Below, one piece after another: positions 13,901-52,700 of a stretch of DNA of 64,000 bases. The stretch is from IMG/VR virus record IMGVR_UViG_3300025467_000013, positions 1 to 64,000 of that record. One strand, 5' to 3'. Origin of the DNA: a virus. The position numbers and the translations under genes are program-made. Position 1 is the first letter of the stretch; each line of letters begins with the position of its first letter. The notes beneath the pieces were generated by a model, which had not been told where the DNA came from, searched no databases, and saw only the letters and a program-made list of their open reading frames with translations.

Positions 13901-16712
13901 TTCCATTCAAATATACTAATACCGCCGTTGTCGATAATGAATCTAAAGAAAAAACGTTGCTTAATGGATAAGATTTAATTCTATAGTCAATTACCGAAAT
14001 CTCAGTTTTGATACTTGGGCCAAATGGAACCATATCACTAAAATAATAAGGATCAGTGTTTGGTCGGTCTTTGGTCATCTTTTGTAGAATTAAATCAACC
14101 ATAGTAGTCGGATTTGTATCTACCCCTAATGATTCAGAAGTTTTTATAAAGTTTCTCTTGAATTTACTATATTCAATTTTTGAATGTTCGATCGCACGAA
14201 CAATATTATTCTGTTCCGATGTAATATGATAAATTGAAAGGCTCAAAGGTGCGCTATGCTGGAGGAACTTAGTACCATATAACGTAATGTTTCCTAAATC
14301 TCGTAAATTATTTGTACCCGGTGATGTACCAACAAACGATATAGTGTTAGGTAAATTATCGACAATCGAATTTACATGATCAATCACTTCTCCTAACGAA
14401 AAATTGGTTATCAACTCATTAAAAGGATTATTTTGTAAATTATACGGAATTTCATAAAACCCGTTGCTATTGATTGCTTGTTTAGAAAACGCTCGCATAG
14501 TCAATACATCACTAAGAGCAATATCATTAACTAGTGTAATTTGTTTGTATAAAGGATTTCTAATTGCAGTTGTATCAGTTGTAAAATTCCAATTAACGGA
14601 ATCAAGACGAATACCGTTAACATAAATTACTAATTTTAAATCATCTAACCCATTAATATTATCAAAAATATCCAGAGGGAAATTGTTAATCCACCCAGAA
14701 TTTTTATAGATTCTAATTGCTGCTTGTGTTGTTGTATTAGCAGAAGTTTGCCAGCCATTAACATAACTCAATACATTATTGTTGTTTGTTTTAACAAGAT
14801 AACCAACATTGATATTTTTTGTAATAATCTTTGAGGTGTCTTTGTAACTAAACGAATCAGTTGCTAAATCAAAATTAAATAATATATCGCCAATGTTGTT
14901 TATATTACCGTAAGACAGAGGAAATCCTAATACAGTATCATCTGATCCTGTTCCTACCTTATATGAAAATAACTTAGTTCCAATAAAGGTCGAACCTGCA
15001 TAGGTAGATTTATTACCATAACTAACATTATTGTCATCAACAATATCGAATAACGGAGTTTGATTTAACTGGTTTTTTTGTTGTGCTATATTCCATGATA
15101 CTCCGTCGTACCAGTACATATATCCTTGAGCACTTTTACCTGATCGAATTAAAACAACATCATTTAGATTAGGTGTTGCATATTCTACTAAATTAATCAA
15201 TCTAACGTTACTAGTTGAATTATGGACTGTAACAAAGTTAACTTGATATATTTTGTTTACAACCTGCATATCAGTATCTGCGGTAACTAAAATCAGTTGG
15301 CCGTCGATTAGGTCTATACCATCAATGTTATATCCAAGTTGTCCTTCGATATTTGAAAAAATATCCGTTGTAAATGAATCAACTAAATCAACATCTGTAA
15401 TTGCATTAGTTCCAAAATTAAACAACTTTAATCCGGTCTCAAATTCGATAATCGGACGAGTCGCTCTTGCCGTTTGATCCAACGATGCTACAGTTCCGTT
15501 TAGTTCTGCACTTTTCTTAATTACGTCAATATGAAACCATCTATTATTACGACTCCATGGATTATGATCATTGCTGCTACGATCAATAACAATATAATCA
15601 GGAGTTTGAGGATATGATGATGCATTACTAAATGGTAGCGAATCAAACGGAGTATCATCAAATAACACCGATTCAGTAACAGTATATGGGCCGATAATTT
15701 CTAATGTAGATTCATTTATTAATCGAATACCTGTGCCTACACCTTCAACATAAAAATGTCCAGTAGCATACTCATTCGGAGTTACTGTACCGATAAAGGA
15801 TACCTTCATTCCATTACTTAAAGATGTACCGTTTTCTAAAGTAAAAGTCTTCTTTCCTATAATTTCTTTTTCAACATCAATAAACGTATTTTCGTTGATC
15901 GAATATATCTCAAAAATACCGCCTACATCCGCATTACTTTCACTTACATAATATAAAGTTTTTGGTGCATTATCCGGTACTGTAAAAGTTATTGTGCCGT
16001 TTTCTACTGCATAACCGTCGACTCCGACATCGGTATACCTATCTAAAAATCCAACAGTTCTTGCAGTTTTAATAGAAAACGGGTTACCTGGACTACTAAT
16101 ATCAAAAATGTATGTTTGACCTTTATATAACTTGATCGTCGGATTCGGCGTTAATCCAAGCACTCCGTTTGGTGAAAATATATAAACGTTATCGCCTAAA
16201 TCATTTTGTATCGATACATCATAAGTGCTTATAATCTTTTGTTGTTGCCCAGAAATCTGAATAGACGATGGGCCATATGGTAACCAATAATAGTGTTGAA
16301 AATTTACAAATTTATCCCAATTAATATGCGGATCCCAACTATAAAACTCTTCAGAATTTAATCTAGCGTGATTTGTAACATTGCTACCGAATACCCCAAG
16401 TTGGTTAATATAGTCTTGGTAATCTTTAAAAAACGTATTGTTACCCGACTCATCATTAATAACTAAGCCCGGCTCTAATTGATAATTTTGTCGTGTCAAA
16501 TCAGCTGCATGAACAAATACATCATTGCCTGTGGTTGATTTAGCATATTCACGACCGATATATCCATTAATCTTTTTAACAGTCCCTGGTTGTATTAATT
16601 GATCAACTGTAGCGTGTAAGAATTTTTTATTTGCATCAGTACGATAATACTGTGGTAAAAATTCTGAACTTATATTTGTATTATTTCCGGTTGGGTTACT
16701 GTTATCAGCCAT
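1977..16712 (-). CDS. Giant multi-domain virion protein, about 4,911 residues
   Basis: The N-terminus (FLPQYYRTDANKKFL, then QPGTVKKINGYIGRE and FYSWDPHINWDKFVNFQHYYW) matches a conserved family of very large structural proteins in aquatic T4-like phages. Visible modules are several carbohydrate-binding-like units (G..V.Y....Y, near residues 1440, 1757, 2394, 4681, 4748). GSGY-type units (VDGGNGYITQP and similar) occur near 1944, 3304 and 3670-3720. Beta-propeller-like FG-GAP repeats occupy about 2550-2900 (FGANLTF, FGYRMAM, FGSYVSF, YGYSIST). I prefer the ATG at 16712 to the in-frame one at 16724, because GGAG lies 6 nt upstream of it. The gene overlaps gp6 by 8 nt. A long fiber or baseplate-periphery adhesin is inferred; no enzyme domain was recognised. 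Confidence 0.85.
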   Translation of the reverse strand: MADNSNPTGNNTNISSEFLPQYYRTDANKKFLHATVDQLIQPGTVKKINGYIGREYAKSTTGNDVFVHAADLTRQNYQLEPGLVINDESGNNTFFKDYQDYINQLGVFGSNVTNHARLNSEEFYSWDPHINWDKFVNFQHYYWLPYGPSSIQISGQQQKIISTYDVSIQNDLGDNVYIFSPNGVLGLTPNPTIKLYKGQTYIFDISSPGNPFSIKTARTVGFLDRYTDVGVDGYAVENGTITFTVPDNAPKTLYYVSESNADVGGIFEIYSINENTFIDVEKEIIGKKTFTLENGTSLSNGMKVSFIGTVTPNEYATGHFYVEGVGTGIRLINESTLEIIGPYTVTESVLFDDTPFDSLPFSNASSYPQTPDYIVIDRSSNDHNPWSRNNRWFHIDVIKKSAELNGTVASLDQTARATRPIIEFETGLKLFNFGTNAITDVDLVDSFTTDIFSNIEGQLGYNIDGIDLIDGQLILVTADTDMQVVNKIYQVNFVTVHNSTSNVRLINLVEYATPNLNDVVLIRSGKSAQGYMYWYDGVSWNIAQQKNQLNQTPLFDIVDDNNVSYGNKSTYAGSTFIGTKLFSYKVGTGSDDTVLGFPLSYGNINNIGDILFNFDLATDSFSYKDTSKIITKNINVGYLVKTNNNNVLSYVNGWQTSANTTTQAAIRIYKNSGWINNFPLDIFDNINGLDDLKLVIYVNGIRLDSVNWNFTTDTTAIRNPLYKQITLVNDIALSDVLTMRAFSKQAINSNGFYEIPYNLQNNPFNELITNFSLGEVIDHVNSIVDNLPNTISFVGTSPGTNNLRDLGNITLYGTKFLQHSAPLSLSIYHITSEQNNIVRAIEHSKIEYSKFKRNFIKTSESLGVDTNPTTMVDLILQKMTKDRPNTDPYYFSDMVPFGPSIKTEISVIDYRIKSYPLSNVFSLDSLSTTAVLVYLNGTQLLYEHDYSFDDQGFVIISAELHNDDIITINEYDSTNGCFVPPTPSKLGIWPTYDPRAYLDTALLNPTWMIQGHDGSHTVLYGEIVNGVFTDFRDAILLELEKRIYNNIKVKYDSSIFDIYDIIPGYNRTTEYSLTEFNEILAPNFYKWVKVVGADYTQNIKFDRTISLTFNYKDFDLPNSTSCPGYWRGIYNYVLDTDSPDQTPWEMLGFNDKPTWWEQVYGSAPYTSDNLIMWQDLTDGVVRQPNVPTIKLLNFVRPDLINRIPVDSDGTLLDPLTAGWATGPVTASIADDFVFGDQGPVEGAWRRSSDYPFSFLITAMLMHPAKTFGTLLDRSRVIRNLAGQLIYSDTGLRVNPSTIAIPSIYSSATKIQTSGIINYLTDYIVGLDLTAYTQYIYDLNNINAQLSYRAGAFSSKEQFNLILDSRSPLSTGGVFVPNENYTLILNSSSPVKKITYSGVIITKLANGFEIKGYSQVDPYFTYYQWNVTGINVTVGGISETFSTWVAGNEYYAGTIVKYNENFYRVLVTNTSTPLDTAYYEKLPTLPIIGGCSARLRTGWNRTNPVVMSYGTMLRTIQDVVDFLLGYEQWLIDQGFRFDNFSDSLSVVTNWTTSAKEFMFWTTQNWSTGEDKWKQWLPNIEFVGGTIVQYEGDYYRVIRSSINSSNFNSSDFVKLEGLSTIGSSVISLSPAAASLTFITNNCVVDDITNPFYTYEIFKVDGTPIDPSTIDVYRNENTVTYSPEENDGIYNATFYLVQKEQIILLDQKTIFNDLIYSPATGYRQERIKVSAHVSTVWDGSFNIPGFIFDQAVFKNWVEWQDYQLGDVVKYQQFYYSANSFLPGTSAFTPSEWTQLSSKPSPKLIPNWTYKAGQFTDFYSLDSDNFDSNQQTMAHHLIGYQKRQYLDNIIQDDVSEFKFYQGMIRDKGTQNVFNNLFNVLTEEGKESLKFYEEWAVRVGQYGANSGFNEIEFILDEAKFNNNPQGVELLDTVPPIYQTLSYTVTDVKITNGGSGYESNEKFNLTVTTSTGTCVFNVRTDSTGKIIAINRIVNSGSFSSVGTITDTSGNLGSGAAFSLTYGIVSPSLDNLTIVQTPNDVYLKPLGYTSSPWPVLANFNPYLRSAGYARLTDVKVAIGTLDALLTNTVWDSGVQYYATNIVTYAADHTGKYKIYIAKIDNINVAPSDTSTAWSLINMGDYIWCGFDKQDWNVYRYSSAYMNVLDIVGVIVNGVQELEITTDALVTVQVGSVIALEQVDSSLAGFYKVVSVNLNAFNVVSSSTPASVTFTDQTNVVVFTLTSQRTSSIDSAEPITSLNLLPNELMWTDENGNGNGQWATWEYNKVYNQSIIINTSPHAFSQYGLSIATTNSTDFLVTTDNSGTLYVRDKASLNSSWLVRQTVPPEFISTYTDPNFTNHYIGDILAISSQEIIAADNWVAVGIPQASHVCTRYKGAWQHLSSYNIKDIIRDPISGEFYKATQNVPEDYPPTCLVTAISNNRVINQLGSGPANPGQSIIFKQTIGNLIADVVYYVSRILSDTAFTVSDTFEGNELTLTNDTNSNGVIVTLWADYWNITQYIPVDAGGTNSSLMKQGAVTLYKVNDNNIITLVDTIISPSPAENEQFGANLTFGNGTFFINAPGGNNGKGVVYQLTYQPVIYASVYYNPIGSNGTIIKVSNTAKIAVGMSIVGTGFTTGQIVARIIDSTTIQSDVEPDSQPVGILEFVILQWTWQDKVGITHNNVAIGGNFGYRMAMSKDVSTLLICSAGVSIIGAVNPGRVFVYNSDDSISYYLSQVITDTEGDGLGFGQGVDVSYAADYIVISSVLYDGLKINEGKVEIYEYGDTQYVPYQKITNIAPETSQHFGSYVSFMNDFDTLVVFSRSSVRYDPIIFDENNTTFDEKSTIFSLATKGEGRVDIYDQYGSYWIFTESLDNLDDNESQYGYSISTGDDTVILSSIYGFDLNVRSGIVYEYKKPINSFTWTIVNQEIDKVDVKKIKKAFLYNKKTDTIVTHLDVVDPLQGKILGVADEELTYKSYFDPAVYSNSDGTIPSSSGQAWTTAQVGQLWWDLRTAKFFNCYDSDVVYRNNTWNQLFPGASIDIYEWVESSILPSDWDATTDTAAGLARGISGTSLYGNSAYSIITKYDELNEVFSNTYYFWVKNKTLVPDVSNRNISANDVANLISNPRGNGYEFIAFTGVNSFSLFNVKPLLQSSDIVLSVQYWIIDKIDQNIHSQWELISTDPTTKLPELIEQKWIDSLCGTDAKNRTVPDLQLPVKIRYGVENRPRQSMVVNRFEALKQVIEQANRVLIKHQIVNQYDLSRLEAAQPIPTTVDGVYDTVIDTVEELSYINISDFVMPSIVPTIVNGRIIDIVIVDAGKGYINAPFIDIVGSGSGAILKTKINSYGQINGVEIISSGIGYDSSTILSVRTYSTLVRNDSTAKNKWSIYYYDSINTVWSKVDTQAYDTTQYWNYTDWYAPGYNQFTVVNFVVNTFIELKDLYSLVGSLVKVLTNNSGKWVLLEKYADSSSIDWTQSYSIVGLQDGTIQLSSSLYEFDNTVYGYDSSLYDLEVYDDYASTELRYIFEAFKYDIFVGDLVQEYLNLFFTSVRYILSEQLYVDWIFKTSFIKAEHNVGSLIQKVTYNNDHLADFQSYVSEVKPYRTKIREYVSNYNSVDINYQAATDFDLPTVLENGKLVPALVEVSNDTIVSYDTITETYPWKFWADNVGFSITELVIVDGGNGYITQPTVEITSNSGSGAHAIAYIAKGTVNRIVLINGGSKYLSVPTVKINGGLSSSGSPAKVIAKIGNGVVRSNLISIKFDRTTQKYFITELQELETAIGTGSKKQFTLAWAPDVRVGYSSVTVNGSNVLRDDYTLTVVKSKSSGYTRYSGLITFNTAPIKGSIIEVTYIKDWLVLNAADRIQYYYDPATGETGKDLDQLMSGVDYGGVTVNGIGFDMYYGWDGSPYFSDRWDSSDDTFTDYIVTLTSVTHTFTLPYVPASGTEINVYYAPNGTNKVNAVRLDNPGFIGHAQWDNPYAIMPPIIMDGRTSTVSVPNTFTVHIGDTFIFRQSTSDGSLAPIPDDYDTAINGGALSNIGGVYTTATGLAADDIIIDGDGFVTQTTSSATEEIVPGQVVDTVAIKVYDRPFSGSAKIKTDTFIGDGSRTEFEITQDPNNRQALLVKLISGYDNPTNQYTNVTILSKDEYTIDYQFNVRTVVLVDPPITGTIVSITSFGVSGSNILDFNSFVGDGVTDQYITTAPWLALLTISIFVNGNMLSSKNYEIFETDDTYELAKLVGINFNTPPAVGDQISYIIVSGSDQTYSIMESETIQTNGSLVYPLQNTIGDSKPYESNMLVRVGQDILKGPNNIYHTIRKATTNADLIYTISSDAALPNTADVNDVSVIISGTAVLKPNTDYIFDGSNMSIKITKTIAKKYVGAELTISIKQHPGYFYTPATTSSVASITFDVEYNNELVEIISFYKHDVLNINRTAINVTTNNSLTPNTIDYFTHLKIFNGQLQLGRTVVDDDYIWIIRNSKILTPSIDFRLNDDRSSVTLAAAPNTNDEFTLITFDDNILESGISYMQFKDMLNRYQYKRLSLNKRSKLYSDLLYNDTTILVVDASTFTLPNPSKNRPGVVEIRGERIEYFTINEHRENGILIFYVLGQLRRGTLGTGVSPVHKAGSYVQDIGSDENIPYADNTIVEQYTITNANNHNHIIPINFVPSLTVNNSWFTDYGYTLKGSFSNTVGYSVNDVVSYNGYYYVNMLSYVASTVNPTSIVPTNGQYWELYSSIPVGYQQCNDIEVFVGGYDNSLTWASNVHYTVGTIVNVGSYSYRCISEHTSSSYFRDDSTRWTFFIGNIRLRKEPYSMFNVNQAPTSPEGDIRFDADFAVDGVSKEIRLTNLLAVGTRVTVIKRTLVEWDSTTNILYDNNKIALFLKETPGIWYTGINKYESNKTTVTLDTYNASFDNAKNTFDQG

Positions 16713-19700
16713 TAGATGCTCCATAAGGTGCGCTTGTTACATTTTGTGATGTAGAAGTATTAGTAGTAGTTCCAGTTATTGCTTTAAGTACTGTTGGGGT
16801 TAATGAAGAAACGATCTCGATATCATTAACTGTTGCGCCATTAACAAATAATTGATCACTAGCAGCAGTGATTTCAAATAGATTGCCAAATCCTATACCG
16901 CCCTGACGAGGAACCACAACAAAACTTGTAATATTCGGTGCCAACTGTTGCATGACATATGCAGCCAGTTCTGAAAAATAAAATGTATCGCCAAAGTCCC
17001 AATTTTCTAACGCAAAGAACTGATTAATTGCAGCTAATACACTTGTTTGTATATAATTATCCGAATTAACTTGAGCTGGATTTTTTACAACTTTAAATGA
17101 TGCTTGTACATCAGGTGTTGCATATGAGCCAAACAGTATTTTGTAAGTTGCCGAATGGTAAACAATCTCGTCAGACATCGACTTAATAAGATTTAACTTT
17201 GGTGCTAAAATATCATATAATTCGTCAGAACCTGGAGGTAATGGTTTTATTATTGTAGACGGAGATGCTAGCCATTTTCTAAATGCAAGGTCATAACTTG
17301 TAGTTAATATATACACATCAACGATATTACTCGGACTTGGATCAATACGCGACTCGTAGTTTGCACTATGTACATACTGGAATTTTAGGTTATCTCGCCC
17401 AACATACACTTTATAGTCCAATGTAGGTTCTAATGTTGCTGTACTTAAATTCAACTTAACTACTGTATCAGTATCGATAAAATAGAAATACTGACTATCG
17501 TTGTAATTTATTAACGGACCCATTGAGCTTTGACTGCTAAGAATCAGTACAATATTCTCCGAATTACTAACGTAGGTATAGTCCTCTTGATCTACATTAA
17601 CAAGGTATTTCTGTTCAACAATATATTTAGAAGTTGGATTTACTGACGGATTAACAATATCAATAAAATACTCTGGGTTGTCAACAACACCATTATTATC
17701 AGAATCAGCAAATGAGATTACTAATTTTGACGGATCAACATATCCATCAGTACCAATGTATTCAGACACGATGTCCCACTTTAAATCAGTAGTAAATGGC
17801 ATTGTAGTATCAGGTTGCGTGTTAATACTAAGAAGAGTAATACTGTCTTTAATTAATTTATTATTAGATACATCGAAAATTCTATGATTGCTATTAAAGT
17901 AAAATCTTATCTGAGCATCACTTTCAAAAATATATTGCTGCTCGCGAGATTTAACCGTATAAACAACATTGTCTGTTGTGAACAGTATTAACCAACTCGA
18001 ATCTTGTTGTTTATTAGTAGTATCGCCTTGATATGCTAAACTAAAATCAGTTGTTAAATTTAAATTCGATTCGTAAACAATTTGCCATGCTTGTGTAGTC
18101 GCATTATAACTTAATCCAAACGGATTATTAGCAAAAATTAAATCAATCATAGTTGTTATAACTGTTGGACTAATAGTAGTAATCCATGCAGGAATAATCT
18201 GATCAATAATAGGATAGATTCCATTTAATGTATCAAATTTTTGATTTAATACAATTGGTCCAAATCCAGATGATAACATTCCGGTCCCGGTTGCTGTTCC
18301 GTCGTCGACTATTGAAACTACCTCTGCCCATACTGATATTTCTGCACCCGGACTCGTTCCATTCCCTAAGACTAATTTATTCGAGTTTAATGTATCAAAA
18401 TAATAACCTGCAGGAGCAGTAAATTTAATTAATGCACCCGGTATAAAGTATTTTAAATCGTTGGTGGTATAATTTCCAACCTTGTATATTGTAGAATTGT
18501 TGTTAGCATCAACAATATATCCGCTAGACATACCGATATCAGTCGTAACACTAATCCAGTTAATTGATAAACTAGCAGTAATATAGTTCAAATATTTTGA
18601 GTAATAATAATTTCGCAGACTAGCTTTCTTTAACACAGGATATAATGCATTGTAAATAACCCCTTCGATATCAGTTCTAGTTTGATATGTAAATGTTATT
18701 TGAGAAATAGTTGGCTGAGAATATATAACTCCGTCGTCTGCAAATAACATAGTAGAACTATATGCACCTGTAGGATCTTTTAAATCAAAGTAACGACTAA
18801 TTCCGCTAGATGTCCTGTTGAGAGATTTAACTTTTACTACTTGTGTACTCGCCGATAACGGACTAATATTATAATCTTCACCTGTAATCATACGATTTTG
18901 TGTATAATAGGTCTGAGGAGCGTTTGTCTTTATGTTGGCATTCGACTCGGTAGTATTAGCATTCGATACACTAGTTTGCAGATTTAATGTAATCGATAAT
19001 TGCTCAAGTTTATTATTACGTGAATAGTAAGGGATAGTAATATTAACACTACGGATATCCTGTGTATTAATCACATACGATAACCCATTACTTACTCTGT
19101 AATAGGTACGAAATGTTCCCAAAGGTAAGTTACCAAAAGTACCGTCACTAAATTGAAGGCTAACCATATCATTAACACGAGAAATAACTTGATAGATTGT
19201 TTGTACATTTTGATTTAAACTATTGTAAATGATATTATTACCGATTAAATTAGGTACTTTTGTCCACAATGTCGATTCTTTACCGTTTGAATCTAATTGA
19301 TATAACCACACATCATTTTCATTAATATTATTTGCATTGATGTCAATAGATTCATTGCTACTTGGTTGGCTAATAGTAAAAGTACCTTGATTTAATGTAC
19401 CTTGTACAAAATTTAAAAAGAAACCTGTCCCGGGGCTTCCGGCACCCATACCGTCGTAACTATAGATACATGCTAATGGATTTCCGAGCGCCGGTGGTTC
19501 TTCGTATATGTAATTTTCACCTTTAAATGTTGTACTTGTAATTTCAAAATTTGTATTATTACCAGAAACTGCTTTTGTAAACGAAAAAACAGGGAGCCCG
19601 GTAATTGCGCTGTTAAATCGATATTGTTCAGTAGGAATCGAATAAATTGTCGCACTATCGGCTGGATTACCAAACTGCTGGGTCGAAGAAAAAGCTGCGT

Positions 19701-29979: not shown

Positions 29980-30405
29980 GTGTCATGGTATTATAAGAAA
30001 AAACTTGTCAAAGAACTACCGCAAGATTGCGTAGGCTTTGTCTATCTCATCACGAATAATATCACTGGTCGGAAGTATATCGGAAAAAAATTAGCGCAAT
30101 TCTCTAAAACAACTTATAAAACAGTGACACTTAAAAACGGCACAAAAAAGAAAAAGAGAATTAAAACTAAGATAGAATCCGACTGGAGAGATTATTACGG
30201 TTCAAATGACCAACTAAACAAAGACGTTCAACAGTTAGGCGCAGACAAATTCACAAGAGAAATACTTTTTTATTGCAAATCTAAGGCAGAATGTAGTTAT
30301 GTAGAGGCTCGAGAACAATTTAGTAGACGAGTACTGGAATCAAACGACTATTATAATGGTCATATCCAGGTTCGGGTCCACGGTTCTCATATTTTAAAAT
30401 CATAA
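29980..30405 (+). CDS. GIY-YIG endonuclease-like protein (SegE-type)
   Basis: 141 residues from a GTG start, 3 nt after the previous stop. The GIY-YIG signature appears as GFVYLITN (18-25) and GRKYIGKK (29-36), followed by a basic loop (KNGTKKKKRIKTK), then SDWRDYYGSNDQL and a helix with a candidate catalytic Glu (YVEAREQF). The conserved end is ESNDYYNGHIQVRVHGSHI. This family includes SegE-like nucleases of T4-like phages. It contains only the nuclease domain plus a short tail, with no separate DNA-binding repeats, so it may be a resident phage nuclease rather than an active homing enzyme. It ends the early operon; the gene-free region follows. Confidence 0.8.
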   Translation: MSWYYKKKLVKELPQDCVGFVYLITNNITGRKYIGKKLAQFSKTTYKTVTLKNGTKKKKRIKTKIESDWRDYYGSNDQLNKDVQQLGADKFTREILFYCKSKAECSYVEAREQFSRRVLESNDYYNGHIQVRVHGSHILKS

Positions 30406-30507
30406 CAGGCATTAACTCTACCAATTAAGCTCGCACTGGCGTCAATAAAGTGCCCTTTAAGTTGGACCTCGGGTCTCAATGACGGAATTCCTTGTTTGGT
30501 AGCGGGG

Positions 30508-30570
30508 TTATAAGTCAGTATCCTTAACAGGACCACGATCGGATGCGCCTTTAACCGGTTTGACTTATAA
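30508..30570 (+). ncRNA. Candidate structured RNA closed by a perfect 10-bp stem
   Basis: TTATAAGTCA (30508-30517) and TGACTTATAA (30561-30570) are perfect reverse complements 43 bases apart. Inside are a small hairpin TCCT-TAAC-AGGA (30521-30532) and a palindrome AACCGGTT (30554-30561 region). The result would be a multi-branched RNA. The strand is uncertain. A tRNA was tested for and rejected. Confidence 0.4.
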
Positions 30571-30596
30571 GAAAAAGTTTTACACAGGCTAAAAGA

Positions 30597-30645
30597 GAGG
30601 CTAGCAGCCTCACGACTGCACTGATGTTAGTGTATTTTTGCAGTC
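30597..30645 (+). other. Two adjacent hairpins
   Basis: GAGGCT-AGC-AGCCTC (30597-30611) is a perfect 6-bp hairpin. It is followed by GACTGCA (30614-30620) pairing with TGCAGTC (30639-30645), which encloses an alternative CACT/AGTG stem. A short T-run (30635-30639) lies inside the second loop, not after it, so it is not a standard terminator. Confidence 0.45.
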
Positions 30646-30770
30646 CGCCGTCATTATGAAAACAGAATGAGTAGGTACCGGATGACCGCCTACGGAATGT
30701 ATTATAAAGATGACAAAAATTAAATTTATTGTTATTTTTATAGTGCATTGTAGTTCTAACACTAAGTGAT

Positions 30771-30834
30771 ATTGTTCAACTCGGATAATGTCTTGTAGTT
30801 TCGCTCGGCAACGGGCGAAATGTGATTGAACAAT
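30771..30834 (+). ncRNA. Candidate structured RNA with nested stems
   Basis: The outer stem ATTGTTCAA (30771-30779) with TTGAACAAT (30826-30834) is a perfect 9-bp pair. The inner stem TTTCGCTC (30799-30806) with GGGCGAAA (30813-30820) is 8 bp with one G-U and a six-base loop. A near-direct repeat (CGGATAATGTC and TGGATAATATC) flanks the arms. Confidence 0.45.
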
Positions 30835-30902
30835 CTGGATAATATCTAAAAGTGCTTCGCACAATCATTATAAAAATAATAGTTCGAGCGATAGCGAAGA
30901 AC

Positions 30903-30921
30903 AGATGAACGTAGTTCATCT
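30903..30921 (+). promoter_or_regulatory. Perfect hairpin just upstream of a late promoter
   Basis: AGATGAAC-GTA-GTTCATCT is an 8-bp perfect palindrome that ends 9 bases before TATAAATA. There is no U-run, so it could be an operator or an RNA 3' end rather than an intrinsic terminator. Confidence 0.45.
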
Positions 30922-30930
30922 TAACACTGT

Positions 30931-30938
30931 TATAAATA
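30931..30938 (+). promoter_or_regulatory. Late promoter, exact T4 consensus TATAAATA
   Basis: An exact match to the T4 late -10 element, 20 bases before the ATG at 30959. AGGA (30948-30951) serves as the ribosome-binding site. gp55, the factor that reads this element, is encoded in the window. Confidence 0.75.
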
Positions 30939-30958
30939 ATTAATGTTAGGAAATACGT

Positions 30959-31693: not shown

Positions 31694-31932
31694 TTACAGT
31701 AATGGTAGTTGACTTTTAACAGTTGTATCAATATTTTCCTTAACAACTTCGTACATTGCTTCGCGATCATCGGGGCCATATACATGAAGAAGCTCGTAAA
31801 AAGTAACACCGCCTCTCATATACCAGCTTAATCTAGCTAATTCTTCTTTGAATTCTTTTAATTCTGTATCTAACCTAACTAGATAGCCGTTAATTTCCGA
31901 CGATGCTAATCTAATTAGGTGCGAACGAAAAA
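31694..31932 (-). CDS. Frameshift-only C-terminal extension of the gp26-like protein
   Basis: Reading in the -1 phase from the slippery site gives 77 residues (RSHLIRLASSEINGYL, then KEFKEELARLSWYMRGGVTF, YELLHVYGPDDREAMYEVVK, ending KSQLPLL). There is no ATG, GTG or TTG start before an internal ATG that would leave only 41 residues, and that ATG has no ribosome-binding site. The frame is open back through the slippery heptamer to a stop further upstream. The product would be a 349-residue fusion (272 + 77). The WYMRGGVTFYELL segment resembles C-terminal parts of tail-assembly chaperones in composition. The stop sits 6 nt from the convergent neighbour, leaving no wasted sequence, which supports real coding. 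Confidence 0.75.
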
Positions 31933-31933
31933 A
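31874..31933 (-). promoter_or_regulatory. Programmed -1 ribosomal frameshift signal
   Basis: The minus strand carries T_TTT_TTC (31927-31933) in the frame of the gp26-like gene (AAT TTT TTC). Phe-tRNA can re-pair at both sites after a -1 slip. A 7-nt spacer (31920-31926) is followed by a 9-bp stem: CCTAATTAG (31911-31919) with CTAGTTAGG (31874-31882), one G-U. It is continued inward by TAGC/GCTA (31905-31908, 31884-31887) and CGT/ACG (31900-31902, 31888-31890). Slippery type, spacing and stem are those of known -1 signals. Confidence 0.8.
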
Positions 31934-32742
31934 TTCGATTGGTCCATTTCGATAATAATAGTATTTGTTGATTCACATTCTACGCATACTACGGATTTTT
32001 GAGGTGCGCTCCATAAAGATTGATTACTTTGCAAATGAGTTTTAAGTGTAAGTATTGTTTCGGAGTCGATATTTTCTAACCATTCTTTAATATAAGCCTG
32101 TTCTACTACGGTAGTTGTACTAGTCTTAACAGATTCGATTGAAAAAGCGTAGATTTCGTTTTGTAAATCTGATAATTCTGAGAAAATTCTAGTTAATTCT
32201 TTACCTCTTTCGACTTCGTCGGCGATATCAGGTACTTGTTTTAACTGTTGTTGTATTTGAAAGTTAGAAACTGAAATATTTGTTGACTGTCTATAGTTTA
32301 ACGGGCGGGTATTAATAACTAAATCTTTTATAATTAATCGATTATTATATGATTTTGCCTTATAATCGTCGATTAATGATGGTAACTCGATGTCATATTC
32401 ATTTTCTGCTTTGCATGAAGGACATACATGTGATACTGGGTAAGTAGTACCAAACGATGCAATCTTAATAGCAATTAGTAAAGTATTAAGATCTAACATG
32501 TTCACATCCCAAGCATCCTTAATTGTTGGGCAGCAACTCTCGATAACTTTCACTACCGACTCGCCTATTAACAATGCATCGGGCGTCTTTAGTAGCATTT
32601 CATCCATTCCGGTCATGCTATACACTGGCATATTTTCGATAGCTCCGTGAATAGTATCTTTATTGTAATAAAGACCATGTGAAGGCAAATCAATAAAAAT
32701 TTTTGGCTGTCTAAAATACTGTTGTAATGGATTTTGGCTCAT
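31915..32742 (-). CDS. gp26: gp26-like T4 baseplate family protein; likely tail-assembly chaperone (short form)
   Basis: 275 residues. The motif line KIFIDLPSHGLYY, MTGMDEMLLKTPDALLIGES, LDLNTLLIAIKIASFG, CPSCKAENEYDIEL matches the T4 baseplate (gp26/gp51-type) family, annotated as hub or hub-assembly proteins. Two CxxC pairs (C107/C110, C253/C256) could form a zinc site. The ATG has GGAG 5 nt upstream and a perfect late promoter 29 nt upstream. The zero-frame ends NFFVRT just after a slippery sequence; -1 slipping adds 77 residues. The gene is divergent from the tape-measure gene 62 bases away, comparable to T4, where genes 51 and 26 diverge from the 27-28-29 group. The chaperone role is inferred from the frameshift and this neighbour. 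Confidence 0.8.
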   Translation of the reverse strand: MSQNPLQQYFRQPKIFIDLPSHGLYYNKDTIHGAIENMPVYSMTGMDEMLLKTPDALLIGESVVKVIESCCPTIKDAWDVNMLDLNTLLIAIKIASFGTTYPVSHVCPSCKAENEYDIELPSLIDDYKAKSYNNRLIIKDLVINTRPLNYRQSTNISVSNFQIQQQLKQVPDIADEVERGKELTRIFSELSDLQNEIYAFSIESVKTSTTTVVEQAYIKEWLENIDSETILTLKTHLQSNQSLWSAPQKSVVCVECESTNTIIIEMDQSNFFVRT

Positions 32743-32752
32743 TCTATCTCCA

Positions 32753-32760
32753 GCTAAATA
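32753..32760 (+). promoter_or_regulatory. Weak candidate late promoter GCTAAATA for the tape-measure gene
   Basis: GCTAAATA, two bases from consensus, lies 44 nt before the tape-measure ATG and sits back to back with the minus-strand TATAAATA. No better plus-strand promoter is visible in this gap. AGGA (32791-32794) is the likely ribosome-binding site. Confidence 0.3.
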
Positions 32761-32771
32761 TACAATATTCG

Positions 32772-32779
32772 TATTTATA
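32772..32779 (-). promoter_or_regulatory. Late promoter TATAAATA for the gp26-like gene
   Basis: Exact T4 late consensus on the minus strand, 29 nt before the gp26-like start codon. Confidence 0.7.
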
Positions 32780-32804
32780 TGCGCATTTTTAGGATTTTTT
32801 ACTT

Positions 32805-35078
32805 ATGGCAAATGAATTAACTCCAGAAAGTTTACGTAACGTACTGTTAGATGTAATAGGTATGTCGGGAACAAGTGGTAGAACCGCCCCTGATGTGAAA
32901 GGAGACTTAGACTGGACTAATCTACAAGATGGCATTGGAAAAACTGCTGGAGCAGCAGGAGTATTGGGTGCAGGCCTGATTAGCGGTAGTAACGCACTTG
33001 GAAAGATTGTACAAGGCTCGTATAGTGCAGGCGATGCGTTAGGTGACATGAATGGAATTGTTGGTGCAGTTGGTGGTAGACTTGGCGAATTTGGTACAGG
33101 ATTAGCAAATGGGCTGAAGAACATTAGTACCACCGCAGTAGAAGTAAACAACAACCTTAAAAAACTTTCTAACAATGGTGTTTATTTTGCAAATGACTTA
33201 GGGAAGTACAGCCAATTAGTTACTGGTGCTAGAACAAGCATGGATCATTTTAATGATCTAGTTACAAAGAACGGTTCTAGTCTAGGGTCGTTTGGCGGTA
33301 ACATGGATCAAGCTGCTGAAAATTATTTAAAATTAGCGCGAGATTTACAACAAAATCCTATAGCAAGTCAACTTGAAAAGACCGGGATGGATATTGACGA
33401 ACTAGGTGATACGTTATTAGCAATCACTGTTCGCTCGAGGAATCTTAATTTGCAAGATGATGCTGCTAAAAGACGGGCAATCGAAGCCTCGTTGAGTCTC
33501 TCGGTCGAAATGGATAATATGTCTCGACTAACAGGTATCAGTCGTCGTGAAATGGAAGACAAGATGCAAAAAGATCGAGAGTCAGCCGCGGCAAAGATTG
33601 CAGAAGCAAGGATGACGCCTGAACAACGTGCAGCGTACGAAAAAGTAAAAGCAGATGCTCTCGCAGCCGGCGGCGATAAAGCTATGACAGTAGCAGCAGA
33701 AGCATTTAGGAATCAAATTTTTGGATTCGGAGGTACAATCGCATCGAAAGCAGGTACAGAAGCAATGCAAGCAGCACCTGAACAGATGGCAATGTATCAA
33801 AACATTGGTATTATGCAAGCCCAAGGGCAAGATACTAACAGACAATTAGCTAAAGTAATAACATCGCAAGAAAACTTATTACAAAGTCAAGATGCTGCGG
33901 TTGCCGCAGCAGGTATGAGTGATTCAGAAAGAACTGCATACTTAGGAGACATTGCATCGCGAGGCGCACTTGCTGAAAAAGTAAAAGAAGCACAAGGTGA
34001 TCCTCAAAGACTAGCTGAATTAATTGCAGCAGAAACTAAAAAAGCATCTGATCAGCGAAAAGAAAATGTTCCGGGACAAAAACCCGAAGATGCATCTGCA
34101 CTGAGCAATGCTATTAATATGGCTGATCGAAGTGTTAGAGACTTTGGTGCAGCAATTGGCACTATGATGCCGGACCTTAATAAATCAGTTGGACAATCTG
34201 TAAATGAGTTTAATTTGCTTACTAAAGCGATACAATTAGCAAGATCGAGTCCCGAAGAAGTTAAGAAGACTGCGGGACTGGGCAACGTTGAAAATATTTT
34301 TAAGGGTGAAACCGAAGGAAGGGCTAATGGATCTTTAGGATCTACTGGTAACTGGATTGAAGACTTTGGTGCAGGCACATTAATGGAACTGCATGGTAAA
34401 GAAGGTGTTGTAACTGAAGGACAATTTAATAATCTAAAAGAACAAATTGAAAGTATTATGACTAGTAACGGAGTAGTACCAACCGTTAGTAATTTTAGTA
34501 CTGACGATTTTCTTTCGCAGATTAAAACTGCAACTAATCCATTACCTATAAACGATAGCGGAATATTTAACGATTTCCTCTCTCAAGTTAAAACTACAAA
34601 TAATGAATCACCTAAGGAAGAAAACGGGTTCTTTAATGATATTACTAACATGTTTTATGATGTTGGTAATATTGCAGGTAAAATGTTCGACGAAGTTACT
34701 ACTACAACAAAAACTCTAGGAGACAATGTTAAGTACCAACCAACAAAAAACGAGTTAACTCCTGCTGAACAAGAAGCAAAACTTCGCGCATTAAACACTC
34801 CGGAAAAAATTGCAGAAAAACGAGCTGCTCTAGAAAAAGAACAAGCAAATAAAAAAATCGAAGAACAAAAAGCAAAAGCGCAGAAAAATCGCGAAAATGC
34901 CAACCCGGAAGAATCTAAAAAAGAACCAGTGCCGGCAAATGTATCCCTAAACGATCTTCGAGATCAATTGATTGAATTAAATAAAAATGTAAAAGACCTA
35001 ATTACTCATACTGATCGTGTTGCAGACCATACTGGAAGGCAACTTACTGAGACGCGGAAAGGCGGCAGTAGAATATAA
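32805..35078 (+). CDS. Tape-measure protein
   Basis: 757 residues. The Gly/Ala-rich amphipathic helical N-terminal part (KTAGAAGVLGAGLISGSNAL) is followed by long Ala/Glu/Lys helices (about 200-460), a conserved tape-measure-like patch (WIEDFGAGTLMELHGKEGVV near 515-535), and a Lys/Glu coiled tail (about 650-710). The FGAGT...LHGKEGVV patch recurs in tape-measure proteins of large myoviruses. By the usual rule of about 1.5 angstrom per residue it would set a tail of roughly 110 nm, which is an estimate only. It is the functional counterpart of T4 gp29. It lies next to the frameshifted gp26-like gene (divergent) and before the portal gene. Confidence 0.75.
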   Translation: MANELTPESLRNVLLDVIGMSGTSGRTAPDVKGDLDWTNLQDGIGKTAGAAGVLGAGLISGSNALGKIVQGSYSAGDALGDMNGIVGAVGGRLGEFGTGLANGLKNISTTAVEVNNNLKKLSNNGVYFANDLGKYSQLVTGARTSMDHFNDLVTKNGSSLGSFGGNMDQAAENYLKLARDLQQNPIASQLEKTGMDIDELGDTLLAITVRSRNLNLQDDAAKRRAIEASLSLSVEMDNMSRLTGISRREMEDKMQKDRESAAAKIAEARMTPEQRAAYEKVKADALAAGGDKAMTVAAEAFRNQIFGFGGTIASKAGTEAMQAAPEQMAMYQNIGIMQAQGQDTNRQLAKVITSQENLLQSQDAAVAAAGMSDSERTAYLGDIASRGALAEKVKEAQGDPQRLAELIAAETKKASDQRKENVPGQKPEDASALSNAINMADRSVRDFGAAIGTMMPDLNKSVGQSVNEFNLLTKAIQLARSSPEEVKKTAGLGNVENIFKGETEGRANGSLGSTGNWIEDFGAGTLMELHGKEGVVTEGQFNNLKEQIESIMTSNGVVPTVSNFSTDDFLSQIKTATNPLPINDSGIFNDFLSQVKTTNNESPKEENGFFNDITNMFYDVGNIAGKMFDEVTTTTKTLGDNVKYQPTKNELTPAEQEAKLRALNTPEKIAEKRAALEKEQANKKIEEQKAKAQKNRENANPEESKKEPVPANVSLNDLRDQLIELNKNVKDLITHTDRVADHTGRQLTETRKGGSRI

Positions 35079-35098: not shown

Positions 35099-36853
35099 AT
35101 GTCTTGGAAAAAATACTTCTCACCGGTGTCTACTAGCGAATATCTGAGCCCAATTGCTGGCAATTCAACAGCAAAAAGTGGTCCCGCAAAAACGAATTTT
35201 TCGAGCTATCTGCCAGATGTGTACACGGGTAGCCCTAACCGTATTGAAAGATATCAGCAATACGAAGTTATGGACAGTGACCCAGAAGTAAATGCAGCAT
35301 TAGATATTCTTGCTGAATTCTGTACACAAAAATTAAAAGATGGTAAAACTCCGTTTAGTGTTCAATGGCGACATAAAGCAACTAATAGTGAAGTTAGAAT
35401 ACTATCTGAATATCTACAGCAGTGGACAAAATTACAAAAATTCGATGTTCGTATCTTTAGAATTATGCGTAACGTCTTTAAGTACGGTGATGTATTCTTT
35501 ATTCGAGATCCAGAGAATCAAAAATGGAGTTACGTTGATCCTACTAAAGTTACAAAAATTATTGTAAATGAAAGCGATGGAAAGAAGCCGGAGCAGTATA
35601 TTATCAAAGACCTTGCTCCTAATTTTGTCGATTTAGTTGCAACACAAATTACACCGAATATTACTACAAATCAGTCAAATGGCGCAGTAATTACTGCTAG
35701 TGCATACATTGGTGCAGGTGGCCAAAGCAGAGGCGGTTCCGGTGCGTATCCTCAATCTAATTCAGGATCTAGATTTGGCTTAGGCGATACAGAAAATGCA
35801 ATCGATTCTGAACATGTTGTACATTTAAGTCTATCAGAAGGATTAGATAATAACTACCCGTTTGGTAATAGTTTACTGGAAAACATCTTTAAAGTCTACA
35901 AACAAAAAGAATTATTAGAAGATGCAATCTTAATTTATCGTATTCAACGTGCTCCGGAACGTAGAGTATTCCATATCGACGTTGGGAATATGCCAGGGCA
36001 CATGGCAATGGCATTTGTTGAACGAGTTAAAAACGAAATTCACCAACGCCGTATTCCAAGTCAAACAGGAGGCGGCGCAAATGTTATTGATAGCGCATAC
36101 AATCCATTATCGATCAATGAAGATTACTTCTTCCCGCAAACCGCTGAAGGACGCGGATCTAAAGTAGAAACATTACCGGGCGGTACTAACCTAGGCGAAA
36201 TCGACGACTTGAAGTATTTTACAAATAAATTATTCCGTGGATTAAGAATTCCTAGTTCTTATTTGCCTACTGGTGCAGACGACAGTCAAACAAATTATAA
36301 TGATGGCCGTGTAGGAACAGCATACATTCAAGAATTACGTTTTAACAAGTATTGCGAACGCCTACAAGCCCTTGTAACAGCAGTTTTTGACGAAGAGTTC
36401 AAAATGTATATGTATACAAGAGGTGTAAACATTGATGCTAATCTATTCGAATTAAAATTTAATCCACCATTGAATTTTGCAAGTACAAGACAAAGTCAAC
36501 TTGATAGTGAACGAATTAATACATTTAATACTATTCAAGCAATTCCGTTTATGAGTAAGAGATTTGCATTAAAACGATTCTTAGGCATGACTGACGAAGA
36601 AGTTGCGGAAAACGAACGTTATTGGGCAGAAGAAAACGGTAAAGGCGCGCCGACATATACTGATGCAGCAGGAGAAATGCGTAGCGCAGGATTATCGGCT
36701 GCTGGAATCGAAGGTGATATGGGAGAAGCAAGTGATTTAGAACCACCTGAAGACATGGAAGGTATGGAAGGAGCCGGAGAGCAAGGTGGGGCACCTGGTG
36801 GCGCATCACCGTTGGGCGGAGCAGGGGCACCGCCAGTTGCGCCAGGAGCATAA
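35099..36853 (+). CDS. gp20: Portal protein gp20
   Basis: 584 residues (T4: 524). Conserved portal segments are YEVMDSDPEVNAALDILAEF, FRIMRNVFKYGDVFFIRDPE, VVHLSLSEGLDNNYPFGNSL, RIQRAPERRVFHIDVGNMPG and FNKYCERLQALVTAVFDEEF. The last 80 residues are a Gly/Pro/Met-rich, probably disordered tail ending PPVAPGA. Twelve copies form the head vertex through which DNA is packaged and to which the tail attaches. The gene follows the tape-measure gene by 20 nt; a TATAAATT sequence (35074-35081) in between is one base from the late consensus. Confidence 0.93.
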   Translation: MSWKKYFSPVSTSEYLSPIAGNSTAKSGPAKTNFSSYLPDVYTGSPNRIERYQQYEVMDSDPEVNAALDILAEFCTQKLKDGKTPFSVQWRHKATNSEVRILSEYLQQWTKLQKFDVRIFRIMRNVFKYGDVFFIRDPENQKWSYVDPTKVTKIIVNESDGKKPEQYIIKDLAPNFVDLVATQITPNITTNQSNGAVITASAYIGAGGQSRGGSGAYPQSNSGSRFGLGDTENAIDSEHVVHLSLSEGLDNNYPFGNSLLENIFKVYKQKELLEDAILIYRIQRAPERRVFHIDVGNMPGHMAMAFVERVKNEIHQRRIPSQTGGGANVIDSAYNPLSINEDYFFPQTAEGRGSKVETLPGGTNLGEIDDLKYFTNKLFRGLRIPSSYLPTGADDSQTNYNDGRVGTAYIQELRFNKYCERLQALVTAVFDEEFKMYMYTRGVNIDANLFELKFNPPLNFASTRQSQLDSERINTFNTIQAIPFMSKRFALKRFLGMTDEEVAENERYWAEENGKGAPTYTDAAGEMRSAGLSAAGIEGDMGEASDLEPPEDMEGMEGAGEQGGAPGGASPLGGAGAPPVAPGA

Positions 36854-49772: not shown

Positions 49773-52700
49773 ATGGCAGAATTTAAACTAGGACGATTAA
49801 AATTTGTATGGCAAGGTGCATGGGTTACTGGTACCGCTTACGTTAAAGACGATGTTGTAAGATATGGCGGTAAAACGTATGTGTGTGTAACCGGCCATAC
49901 TGCAAATGCAAACTTCTATACCGATCTCGGAACTTCTTATTGGAGTTTAATGGGAGATGGTATTGCATGGGTAGGTACATGGACTGGATCAACATTTTAT
50001 AAAGTTGGCGACATTGTTAAGAATGGTGGACAATCATATATTTGTACCACTGGCCATACTTCGGTATCAACATTTGCTAGCGATTCATCAAACTGGACTT
50101 TAATTTCAGGCGGTTTTGCATGGAGAGGATCGTGGCAACAAAGCACATTATATAATGTTAACGATGTTGTAATGTTTGGTGCAGTTACATACATTTGTAC
50201 TACTGCAAATACCAGTTCGTCGGATTTTGCAACTGATCAAAGCAGCAAATGGCAAGTTTTTGTTCAAGGTACACAGTTTATTAATACTTGGAATAATTCC
50301 ACTGAATATTCTGCAGGTTCTATTGTAACATATGGTGGTTATTCATATGTTTCAACACAAACCAATACCGGGCAAGTTCCATCGTCTAGCCCATCTTACT
50401 GGAACGTATACACAACCGGTTATAGCAATCAAGGAACATTTAGCTACGGCACAACATATAAAGTTGGTAGTGTAGTTCAATATGGCGGTAACACATATGT
50501 TGCTATTCTTGATAATACTAACCAATATCCGTCAAACGCAACGTATTGGTCAATTGTTGCATATGGTATTAAAGTAAATGGTCCATATGTCGGTGGTACA
50601 ACTTACAATCTTAATGATGTTGTAACTTATGGCGGTTCTGCATATAGAGCATTACAAACAAACACTAGCATTGCTCCGTCGGCGCTTTCGCCTAATTGGC
50701 AAGTTTTATCTGTAGGTTTAGTAAATCAAGGCGTTTGGTCAGGTTCAACAAACTATAAATTAAATGACTTAGTACAATACGGTGCAAATATCTATATTGC
50801 AATCCAAGACAATGTAGCGCAAACTCCAAGTACTGCTGCATCTTACTGGTCGGTATTTAATTATGGTTACAATTATCAAGGTACATGGTCTAGTGCAACT
50901 AACTACACTATTGGCCAAGTTGTAACATACGGTGGATCATTATTCCAAGCAAAATCCGACAACAATAATGTAAACCCAACTACAACTGCAACATGGAATA
51001 AATTATCATACGGTGTTAAAAATCGCGGCACATGGACAACTTCGACTGCATATAATATTGACGAATTAGTAACACATGGTGCAAACACATATATTTCATT
51101 AATTCCACATACTTCGGGTACTTTCTCTTCAGATTTATCGACAGCAAAATGGCAATTAATGTCGAGCGGATTGCAATATAGAGGTGTATGGGCAGGATCT
51201 ACAAGTTATTATGTTAACGATATTGTTCAAGGCCCAACAGGATCTGTATATGTTGCATTACTAGATCATACATCGGGTGGTGATTTTCCAACTGATTTAG
51301 CAGCAAGCAAATGGACATTATTCATTGCATATAGCTCTACAACACTTCCTTCATTACCAAGTCCGGCTGTAGGCAAGTCTTTAACTGTTTCAAGTAACGG
51401 TTCTACACTTTCTTGGTTAAACACTACAGGATCTGCTAACGTTCTTTATGTTGGACCAGGCGGCTCCGACGCATCAAATCAAGGAACAAGTTTAGCAACA
51501 CCGTTTGCTACAATTAAGTACGCATGTTCGGTAGCAACATCGGGTAATGTAATTTATGTTAAAAGTGGTACATACTCAGAACAGCTTCCGATCACAGTTC
51601 CTGCAGGGGTGTCGATTGTAGGCGATAGTTATAGAACAGTTACAGTTCAACCAACAAGTGGACTTAGTGATGATGCTGTGACTCCGAACAACCAAGCAAC
51701 TATGTGGAAATTAAGCGATGGTACTAATCTTTCAGAAATGACCTTTGCAAATATGACCGGTTGGGTTCCAGGAAGTACTACTTCGGATATTTCAACATCT
51801 ACACCAAAAGGCGTGTATGTTGCATTTAATTCGGCATCAGTTATTACTAGACCTCCGAGTGTTTCAAACTGCACTACGAGTTCATCATCTGGTGCAATTG
51901 GTGCATACTTAGACGGCTCGTTACATGGGTCGGGGCAAAAAACAATGGCATTCCGCTATTACAATATTACTTCAGATACTGGTGTAGGGTTCTGGGCTAC
52001 GAATAATGCAAAATTAGATCTTACAACTTGTACATCTTCATATTGCTATTTTGGGTTTGCAACATCAGCAGGTGGAACTATTCGATCTGATAACGGTACT
52101 GCAAAATGGGGTACTTATGGCGGAACTTCGGTTGGTTATTCATCATTAGAAACTGCTGCAACTGGAAATATTGTCGGTCAACAGTTAAACTTTTCTTATA
52201 ATACCGGTACAATTGCAGTAGGTGATACTGTAACTTCGATCACTAGCGGCGGTACTGCTACTGTTATTGGGGTCCAAACTGCATATAACAAAGTATTTGT
52301 GTCAAGTGTTACTGGATCGTTCTTAACAGGTGATGCGTTATCATTTACTAGTGGTGGATCTGGTATAGTAACTACAGGTGTTACTAATCAAACAGGTGCA
52401 GTATTAGCATTAAACACACTAGCAGCATTACCAACAGCAGGCGGTGTTGTTACTATCGGAAGTGATAGTTATATTATTCAATCTGTAAGTGGTGCGTATG
52501 TTAACTCAGCTAGTGTTATTACTGTATTTTTAACAAGTGCAGCAACTAACTTATACGCAAATGCAGCAGCAGTAACTATTCGTTATCAAACATCACAGAC
52601 TCGTTTATCAGGTCATGATTTCTATAATGTTGGCACCGGCGGTGTAACTAATACAAATTATCCAGGTACGCCATTATCTGGACCGTTCTCTGCACAAGAA

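Follow-up and report, generated by a model that had tools for sequence, protein, structure and literature searches.

The genes related to T4 gene 26 are usually labelled as baseplate hub or hub assembly genes, and the question raised by the locus described here is whether such a gene encodes the tail assembly chaperone of the T4-related phages. The locus is found in a stretch of virus DNA of 64,000 nucleotides (hereafter, the window), which is a part of the 75.6-kb IMG/VR virus record IMGVR_UViG_3300025467_000013, and it consists of a gp26-like gene with a putative -1 frameshift near its 3' end and a large gene transcribed away from it. The first-pass annotation had proposed a chaperone role for the family from the two-form expression and from this position. 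On the evidence discussed below, it is quite likely that the gp26-like gene makes a two-form tail assembly chaperone of T4-related phages; the earlier idea is supported, with chaperone activity and tape-measure binding remaining inferences. The features of the locus are as follows.

31915..32742, minus strand: short form, a gp26-like core protein of 275 aa (PF12322, phrog_150)
31927..31933, minus strand: slippery heptamer T TTT TTC in -1 frameshift phase (codons AAT TTT TTC), the sole in-phase copy
31694..31927, minus strand: -1 frame extension of 77 aa plus stop, joined at residue 272 to give a long form of 349 aa
31873..31920, minus strand: downstream RNA stem of 11 bp (31920..31910 with 31883..31873), a probable frameshift stimulator
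32743..32804: divergent intergenic gap of 62 bp, near-constant in relatives (mostly 54-76 bp)
32805..35078, plus strand: helix-biased protein of 757 aa, a probable tape measure, with homologues of 619-1382 aa in the same place
35099..36853, plus strand: portal protein, T4 gp20-like (PF07230, 7e-109), which marks the conserved gene order

The window gp26-like protein matches PF12322 T4_baseplate at 8e-12 with 45.7 bits (the Pfam curated cut-off is 24.5) and phrog_150 'baseplate hub' at 4e-15. A record search finds this one PF12322 gene and no other in its own 75.6-kb record. Two CxxC pairs, C107/C110 and C253/C256, are invariant across 56 aligned sequences. The gene had been described as frameshifted, and indeed a -1 shift at 31933..31927 gives a product of exactly 349 aa ending at 31694; no ATG, GTG or TTG is present near the overlap of core and extension in this gene.

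A survey of gp26-like genes for a downstream -1 extension, which had been named as a way of checking the idea, comprises 171 related genes from jumbo phages, Kyanoviridae, KVP40-like phages, ZPAH1 and PhiW-14, which fall into 45 groups at <60% amino acid identity. Both the in-phase heptamer (TTTTTTC in 170 genes, TTTTTTT in one) and the -1 extension are present in 171/171. Among them, PA5oct, Phosso, Atu_ph07, RaK2 and 121Q have in-phase TTTTTTC and an open -1 extension of 64-75 aa, while the window protein is only 27-30% identical to these five counterparts; CBB and Vibrio phage 2.275 likewise have in-phase TTTTTTC with a -1 extension, and so do all the jumbo IMG/VR loci with respect to heptamer and extension (80/80). 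Beyond the jumbo phages the heptamer is found in S-RIM8, PhiW-14, VH1_2019 (KVP40-like) and ZPAH1, and as TTTTTTT in Melnitz-1. In the Kyanoviridae-type loci it is located exactly 10 nt before the stop in 80 of 80, two of the 80 extensions being shorter (13 and 40 aa). The codon ahead of the heptamer is variable (AGT, AAT, TCT, GAT, GCT, CAT, GGT, CGT), and its third position is always T. Under a codon null that conditions on the FF dipeptide and on each gene's own codon usage, and that assumes independent groups, TTT TTC with a preceding third-position T would arise by chance over the 45 groups with a probability of about 10^-52, by which a chance heptamer is ruled out.

Some junctions have a different arrangement. 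In Stenotrophomonas phage RAS14 (L191, 3959-4813) the only heptamer is a TTTTTTT 40 nt ahead of the stop; the overlap is longer there, and a -1 extension is present. Another locus (L084) is like RAS14 in having the heptamer 43 nt upstream. In the Ackermannviridae (L090, L092, L193-L210) the -1 extension is conserved and the heptamer is not: the junction of the T765 type reads GAR ATT TTC ATY TAA, and that of VAP7 reads CAC GTT TTT CGC TAA with an overlapping ATG.

The sequence downstream of the heptamer also carries a conserved element. The 11-bp stem in the window begins 6 nt past the heptamer and has a folding z of -3.35. In a stem alignment of 33 sequences, 93.4% of the cells are paired and 6 pairs are altered on both sides, the covariation score is reached by 0 of 500 shuffles, and sliding the stem partner to a shifted position abolishes the pairing; an independent consensus fold recovers the same stem. 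Over the 45 groups, the 60 nt downstream of the heptamer fold better than shuffles, with a mean z of -2.4. The 11-bp stem is therefore a probable frameshift stimulator. An upstream Shine-Dalgarno-like element was seen in 10 of the 45 groups against 2.9 expected; it is weak and is not relied on. Taken at the level of sequence, these comparisons establish that a putative programmed -1 frameshift signal is conserved across the family, and that one gene is laid out to give a short form and a -1 extended form through a 3' slippery site; translation of the extension, frameshifting in vivo and the ratio of the two forms are inferred.

T4 itself has no such frameshift, and to this extent the earlier picture does not apply to it: the long form of T4 is encoded by a separate gene, 51. 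T4 gp26 and gp51 match PF12322 at 9e-64 and 4e-52, respectively, and each other at E 1.6e-20 in a profile comparison, and gp51 consists of the core plus about 50 additional C-terminal residues. The frameshift extension of the Kyanoviridae matches this gp51 C-terminus (residues about 200-250) at E 3e-9, and that of KVP40/ZPAH1/PhiW-14 matches it at E 9e-7; the entire Kyanoviridae frameshift product is collinear with gp51 (E 4e-15), whereas profile comparison of the frameshift extension with gp26 gives no match. The extension of the jumbo phages, the window included, matches the gp51 C-terminus only weakly (E 0.01) and the Kyanoviridae extension weakly as well (E 0.0015). Independently of these comparisons, phrog_634 ('hub assembly catalyst', gp51) matches the -1 ORF of S-RIM8, Melnitz-1, VH1, ZPAH1, PhiW-14 and T765 in addition to the gp51 C-terminus in T4 and avDM5, and the -1 ORF of S-RIM8 is already annotated as a separate gene, 'baseplate hub assembly catalyst'. 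Consequently, so far as profile similarity can tell, gp26 and gp51 are paralogues and the gp51 C-terminus is homologous to the Kyanoviridae and KVP40-like extensions; homology of the jumbo extension with the gp51 C-terminus is an inference, since the sequence similarity is weak.

Whole-record searches divide the reference phages into two kinds. Two PF12322 genes are present in T4, avDM5, RB43, Aes508, phiP4-3 and SFHK24, and a T-run heptamer is absent from the 3' end of either gene in 6/6 of these phages. Exactly one is present in 15 other reference phages, all of which have the -1 extension (15/15) and 13 of which have the T-run heptamer, RAS14 being counted with its TTTTTTT 40 nt upstream; the remaining two are Ackermannviridae, which keep the -1 extension with a different, non-canonical junction. 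As judged from these records, the heptamer and a second family gene are mutually exclusive, and the putative frameshift has been replaced by two genes in T4-type phages. In a tree of the cores all gp51 proteins are in one clade with a support of 100/100, and the timing of the duplication is unresolved (support 43-52). In RB43 the two family genes lie side by side and run in the same direction; in T4, phiP4-3 and SFHK24 they are divergent. From the conserved signal, the paralogy of gp26 and gp51 and the exclusivity of the heptamer, it follows that the family produces two forms, one short and one long, either by a frameshift or by two genes. It is reasonably likely that T4 is no exception in this respect, that is, that in its lineage a duplicated pair took the place of an ancestral chaperone gene with a frameshift, gene 26 supplying the short and gene 51 the long form, and that the two hub factors are these two forms.

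The second part of the question concerns the large neighbour. A divergent large ORF lies beside the gp26-like gene in 70 of the 70 testable jumbo loci (the range of 619-1382 aa given above refers to complete copies in jumbo loci only), and a frame of at least 300 codons opens no more than 60 nt after the extension stop in 71/72 testable Kyanoviridae-type loci. VH1 and ZPAH1 also have a tape-measure candidate beside the gp26-like gene, and the gene order in T4 is 51-27-28-29. The linkage is not universal, however, being missing in Atu_ph07, PhiW-14 and the Ackermannviridae; in Atu_ph07 the neighbour homologue is ~178 kb from the gp26-like gene on the circular map (record positions 469 kb and 157 kb). 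Phosso keeps the gp26-like and tape-measure-like genes together, and its relative Atu_ph07 has the Phosso-type homologue far off.

The tape-measure label of the neighbour is an inference from indirect evidence without sequence homology, and it is probable on that basis. The 757-aa protein has a helix bias like that of T4 gp29, which sets it apart from the window's remaining long tail proteins (one of these, of 1158 aa, is a baseplate wedge protein); both the 757-aa protein and gp29 are encoded near genes of the gp26/gp51 type. No tape-measure model in Pfam or PHROGs matches it, and no sequence or profile similarity to PF25671 or T4 gp29 is detectable, so it is called tape-measure-like here and not a member of the gp29 family. 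The jumbo, Kyanoviridae and T4 gp29 tape-measure candidates do not match one another, either. In CBB the neighbour is a protein of 722 aa which is well detected in the virion with 29 peptides, and 722 residues x 0.15 nm give 108.3 nm, the same as the tail of 123.0 nm minus the baseplate of 14.7 nm; this agreement in length rests on a single phage, and the collar is counted in the tail figure. The first-pass description of a gene divergent from a tape-measure gene at a distance of 62 bases is thus right in gap and orientation, while the identity of the tape measure lacks a model match.

Elsewhere in the window, CBM5/12 carbohydrate-binding modules are found in a virion structural protein of 4915 aa (1977-16724, minus strand) and, in six stretches, in a protein of 1463 aa (49773-54164, plus strand). 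A 141-aa ORF (29980-30405, plus strand), which begins in a GIY-YIG-like manner (VYLITNNITGRKYIGKK) and may encode a homing endonuclease, is located beside an intergenic stretch of roughly 550 bp (30406-30958).

The chaperone idea would have been refuted if both forms were stoichiometric parts of mature virions, and this is not seen; nor is the link with the tape-measure candidate lacking in other genomes, which was the other refuting condition. The gp26-like protein is not in the mass-spectrometry list of CBB (PMC5259590), and in the PA5oct record it is not flagged as detected, whereas its neighbours, including the tape-measure-like protein, are flagged; low-copy proteins can escape virion mass spectrometry. 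In addition, the PDB has no chain for T4 gp26 or gp51, while T4 gp29 is solved. These absences are consistent with assembly factors and are not proof. Structure models were made of the 275-aa core and of gp51 from L175 as a naturally occurring long form: the core model has a pLDDT of 88.5 and a pTM of 0.83, and the gp51 model is acceptable, its helical C-terminal region being less confidently predicted. A PDB fold search with the core model and the T4-type gp51 model gave no match, and a BFVD search gave gp26-like proteins and remote uncharacterised phage proteins. The remote matches are in Bacillus SP-15 and BCD7, Leptospira LE4 and large jumbo phages such as Ralstonia RP12; judging from predicted models, unannotated proteins of the Ralstonia RP12/RSF1-type jumbo phages, Leptospira LE4 and Bacillus BCD7 may be unrecognised gp26-like counterparts.

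The most serious alternative to the chaperone reading is that the two forms serve in the assembly of the baseplate hub (gp27/gp5) alone, without acting on the tape measure, and that the frameshift sets their ratio as hub factors. Leiman et al. 2010 list gp26 and gp51 as hub assembly chaperones, that is, they put both in hub assembly, and also cite contradictory genetic data in which gp26 is assigned to the T4 hub itself (PMC3004832). Gene 51 of T4 is directly ahead of 27 and 28 as well as of 29, and in Ackermannvirus T765 the gene adjoins a gp5-like hub lysozyme gene. However, the constant partner in the jumbo phages, Kyanoviridae, KVP40-like phages and ZPAH1 is a large helix-biased protein, not gp27 or gp5, and the short/long anatomy fits tape-measure chaperones, so a role confined to the hub is considered rather unlikely. 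The hub view and the tape-measure view overlap in any case, because T4 gp29 itself is counted as a hub component (PMC3004832).

The remaining doubts concern the extension. It might be made separately by termination-reinitiation as a free gp51-like peptide with no fusion, since a start codon overlaps the stop and separate ORFs are annotated in phages such as 121Q, PhiW-14, VH1 and VAP7. A start codon near the stop is present, however, in only 14 of the 45 groups and not in the window, and because the start codons are missing, separate translation is rejected for most groups; furthermore, the heptamer and the stem are kept regardless of start codons, and in T4 gp51 the core and the extension are naturally fused, all of which makes reinitiation very improbable. 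It is true that translation cannot be shown by sequence alone, so the 3' overlap could in principle be incidental, due to a sequencing error or a decayed gene. This is scarcely conceivable for 171 genes from separate assemblies and isolates with an invariant heptamer, a conserved extension and a covarying stem, and the incidental overlap is refuted by this conservation.

The preferred reading, a two-form tail assembly chaperone, can be modelled on lambda gpG/gpGT, in which one gene near the tape-measure gene likewise gives a short protein and a -1 frameshifted long form. Most ribosomes would end at the stop of the gp26-like frame to give the short form, and a minority, helped by the stem, would slip -1 at T TTT TTC and add a short C-terminal domain to give the long form. 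By analogy with gpG/gpGT, it is inferred that the tape measure, probably the divergent 757-aa protein, is the target of both forms: many copies of the short form would coat it, a few copies of the long form would recruit tube or hub subunits, and both forms would depart before the virion matures, as lambda-type gpG/gpGT chaperones are described as absent from mature virions (PMC5009743). In T4-type phages a pair of paralogues would stand in for the frameshift, gene 26 for the short form and gene 51 for the long one.

No relationship to lambda gpG/gpGT is detected in sequence or fold. Unlike gpG/gpGT, the gp26-like core has 230-285 aa with CxxC pairs, the jumbo gene is divergent from its tape-measure candidate, and the two forms come from separate genes in T4-type phages. 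The proteins gp26 and gp51 of T4 (PF12322, phrog_150, phrog_634) belong to the same family, gp26 being the counterpart of the short form and gp51 that of the long form with its extension, but they are two paralogous genes, divergent in T4, without the slippery heptamer. P1 PmgB is also a proposed tape-measure chaperone; its gene is an essential morphogenesis gene which adjoins the tape measure, and the protein is absent from the virion proteome, with no frameshift reported (PMC9024508). A relationship is only suggested by a weak match of phrog_1854 'PmgB-like' to the Phosso relative. In the open-access literature no statement tying gp26 or gp51 to a frameshift was found (subscription papers were outside the search), and the GenBank record of Acinetobacter phage Octan names gp26 'tape measure protein assembly chaperone'.

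A 2016 review described G-T frameshifting as conserved in long-tailed phages 'except T4' (PMC5009743). The evidence from the family suggests that the wider family of T4 does use a frameshift, and it offers an explanation for the T4 'exception', namely a recoding event swapped for a pair of genes. It would also assign a definite function to two hub factors of T4 whose role has long been unclear. As for annotation, the 'hub assembly catalyst' ORF of cyanophage S-RIM8 and its relatives most probably encodes the terminal part of a fusion protein and is not a separate gene.
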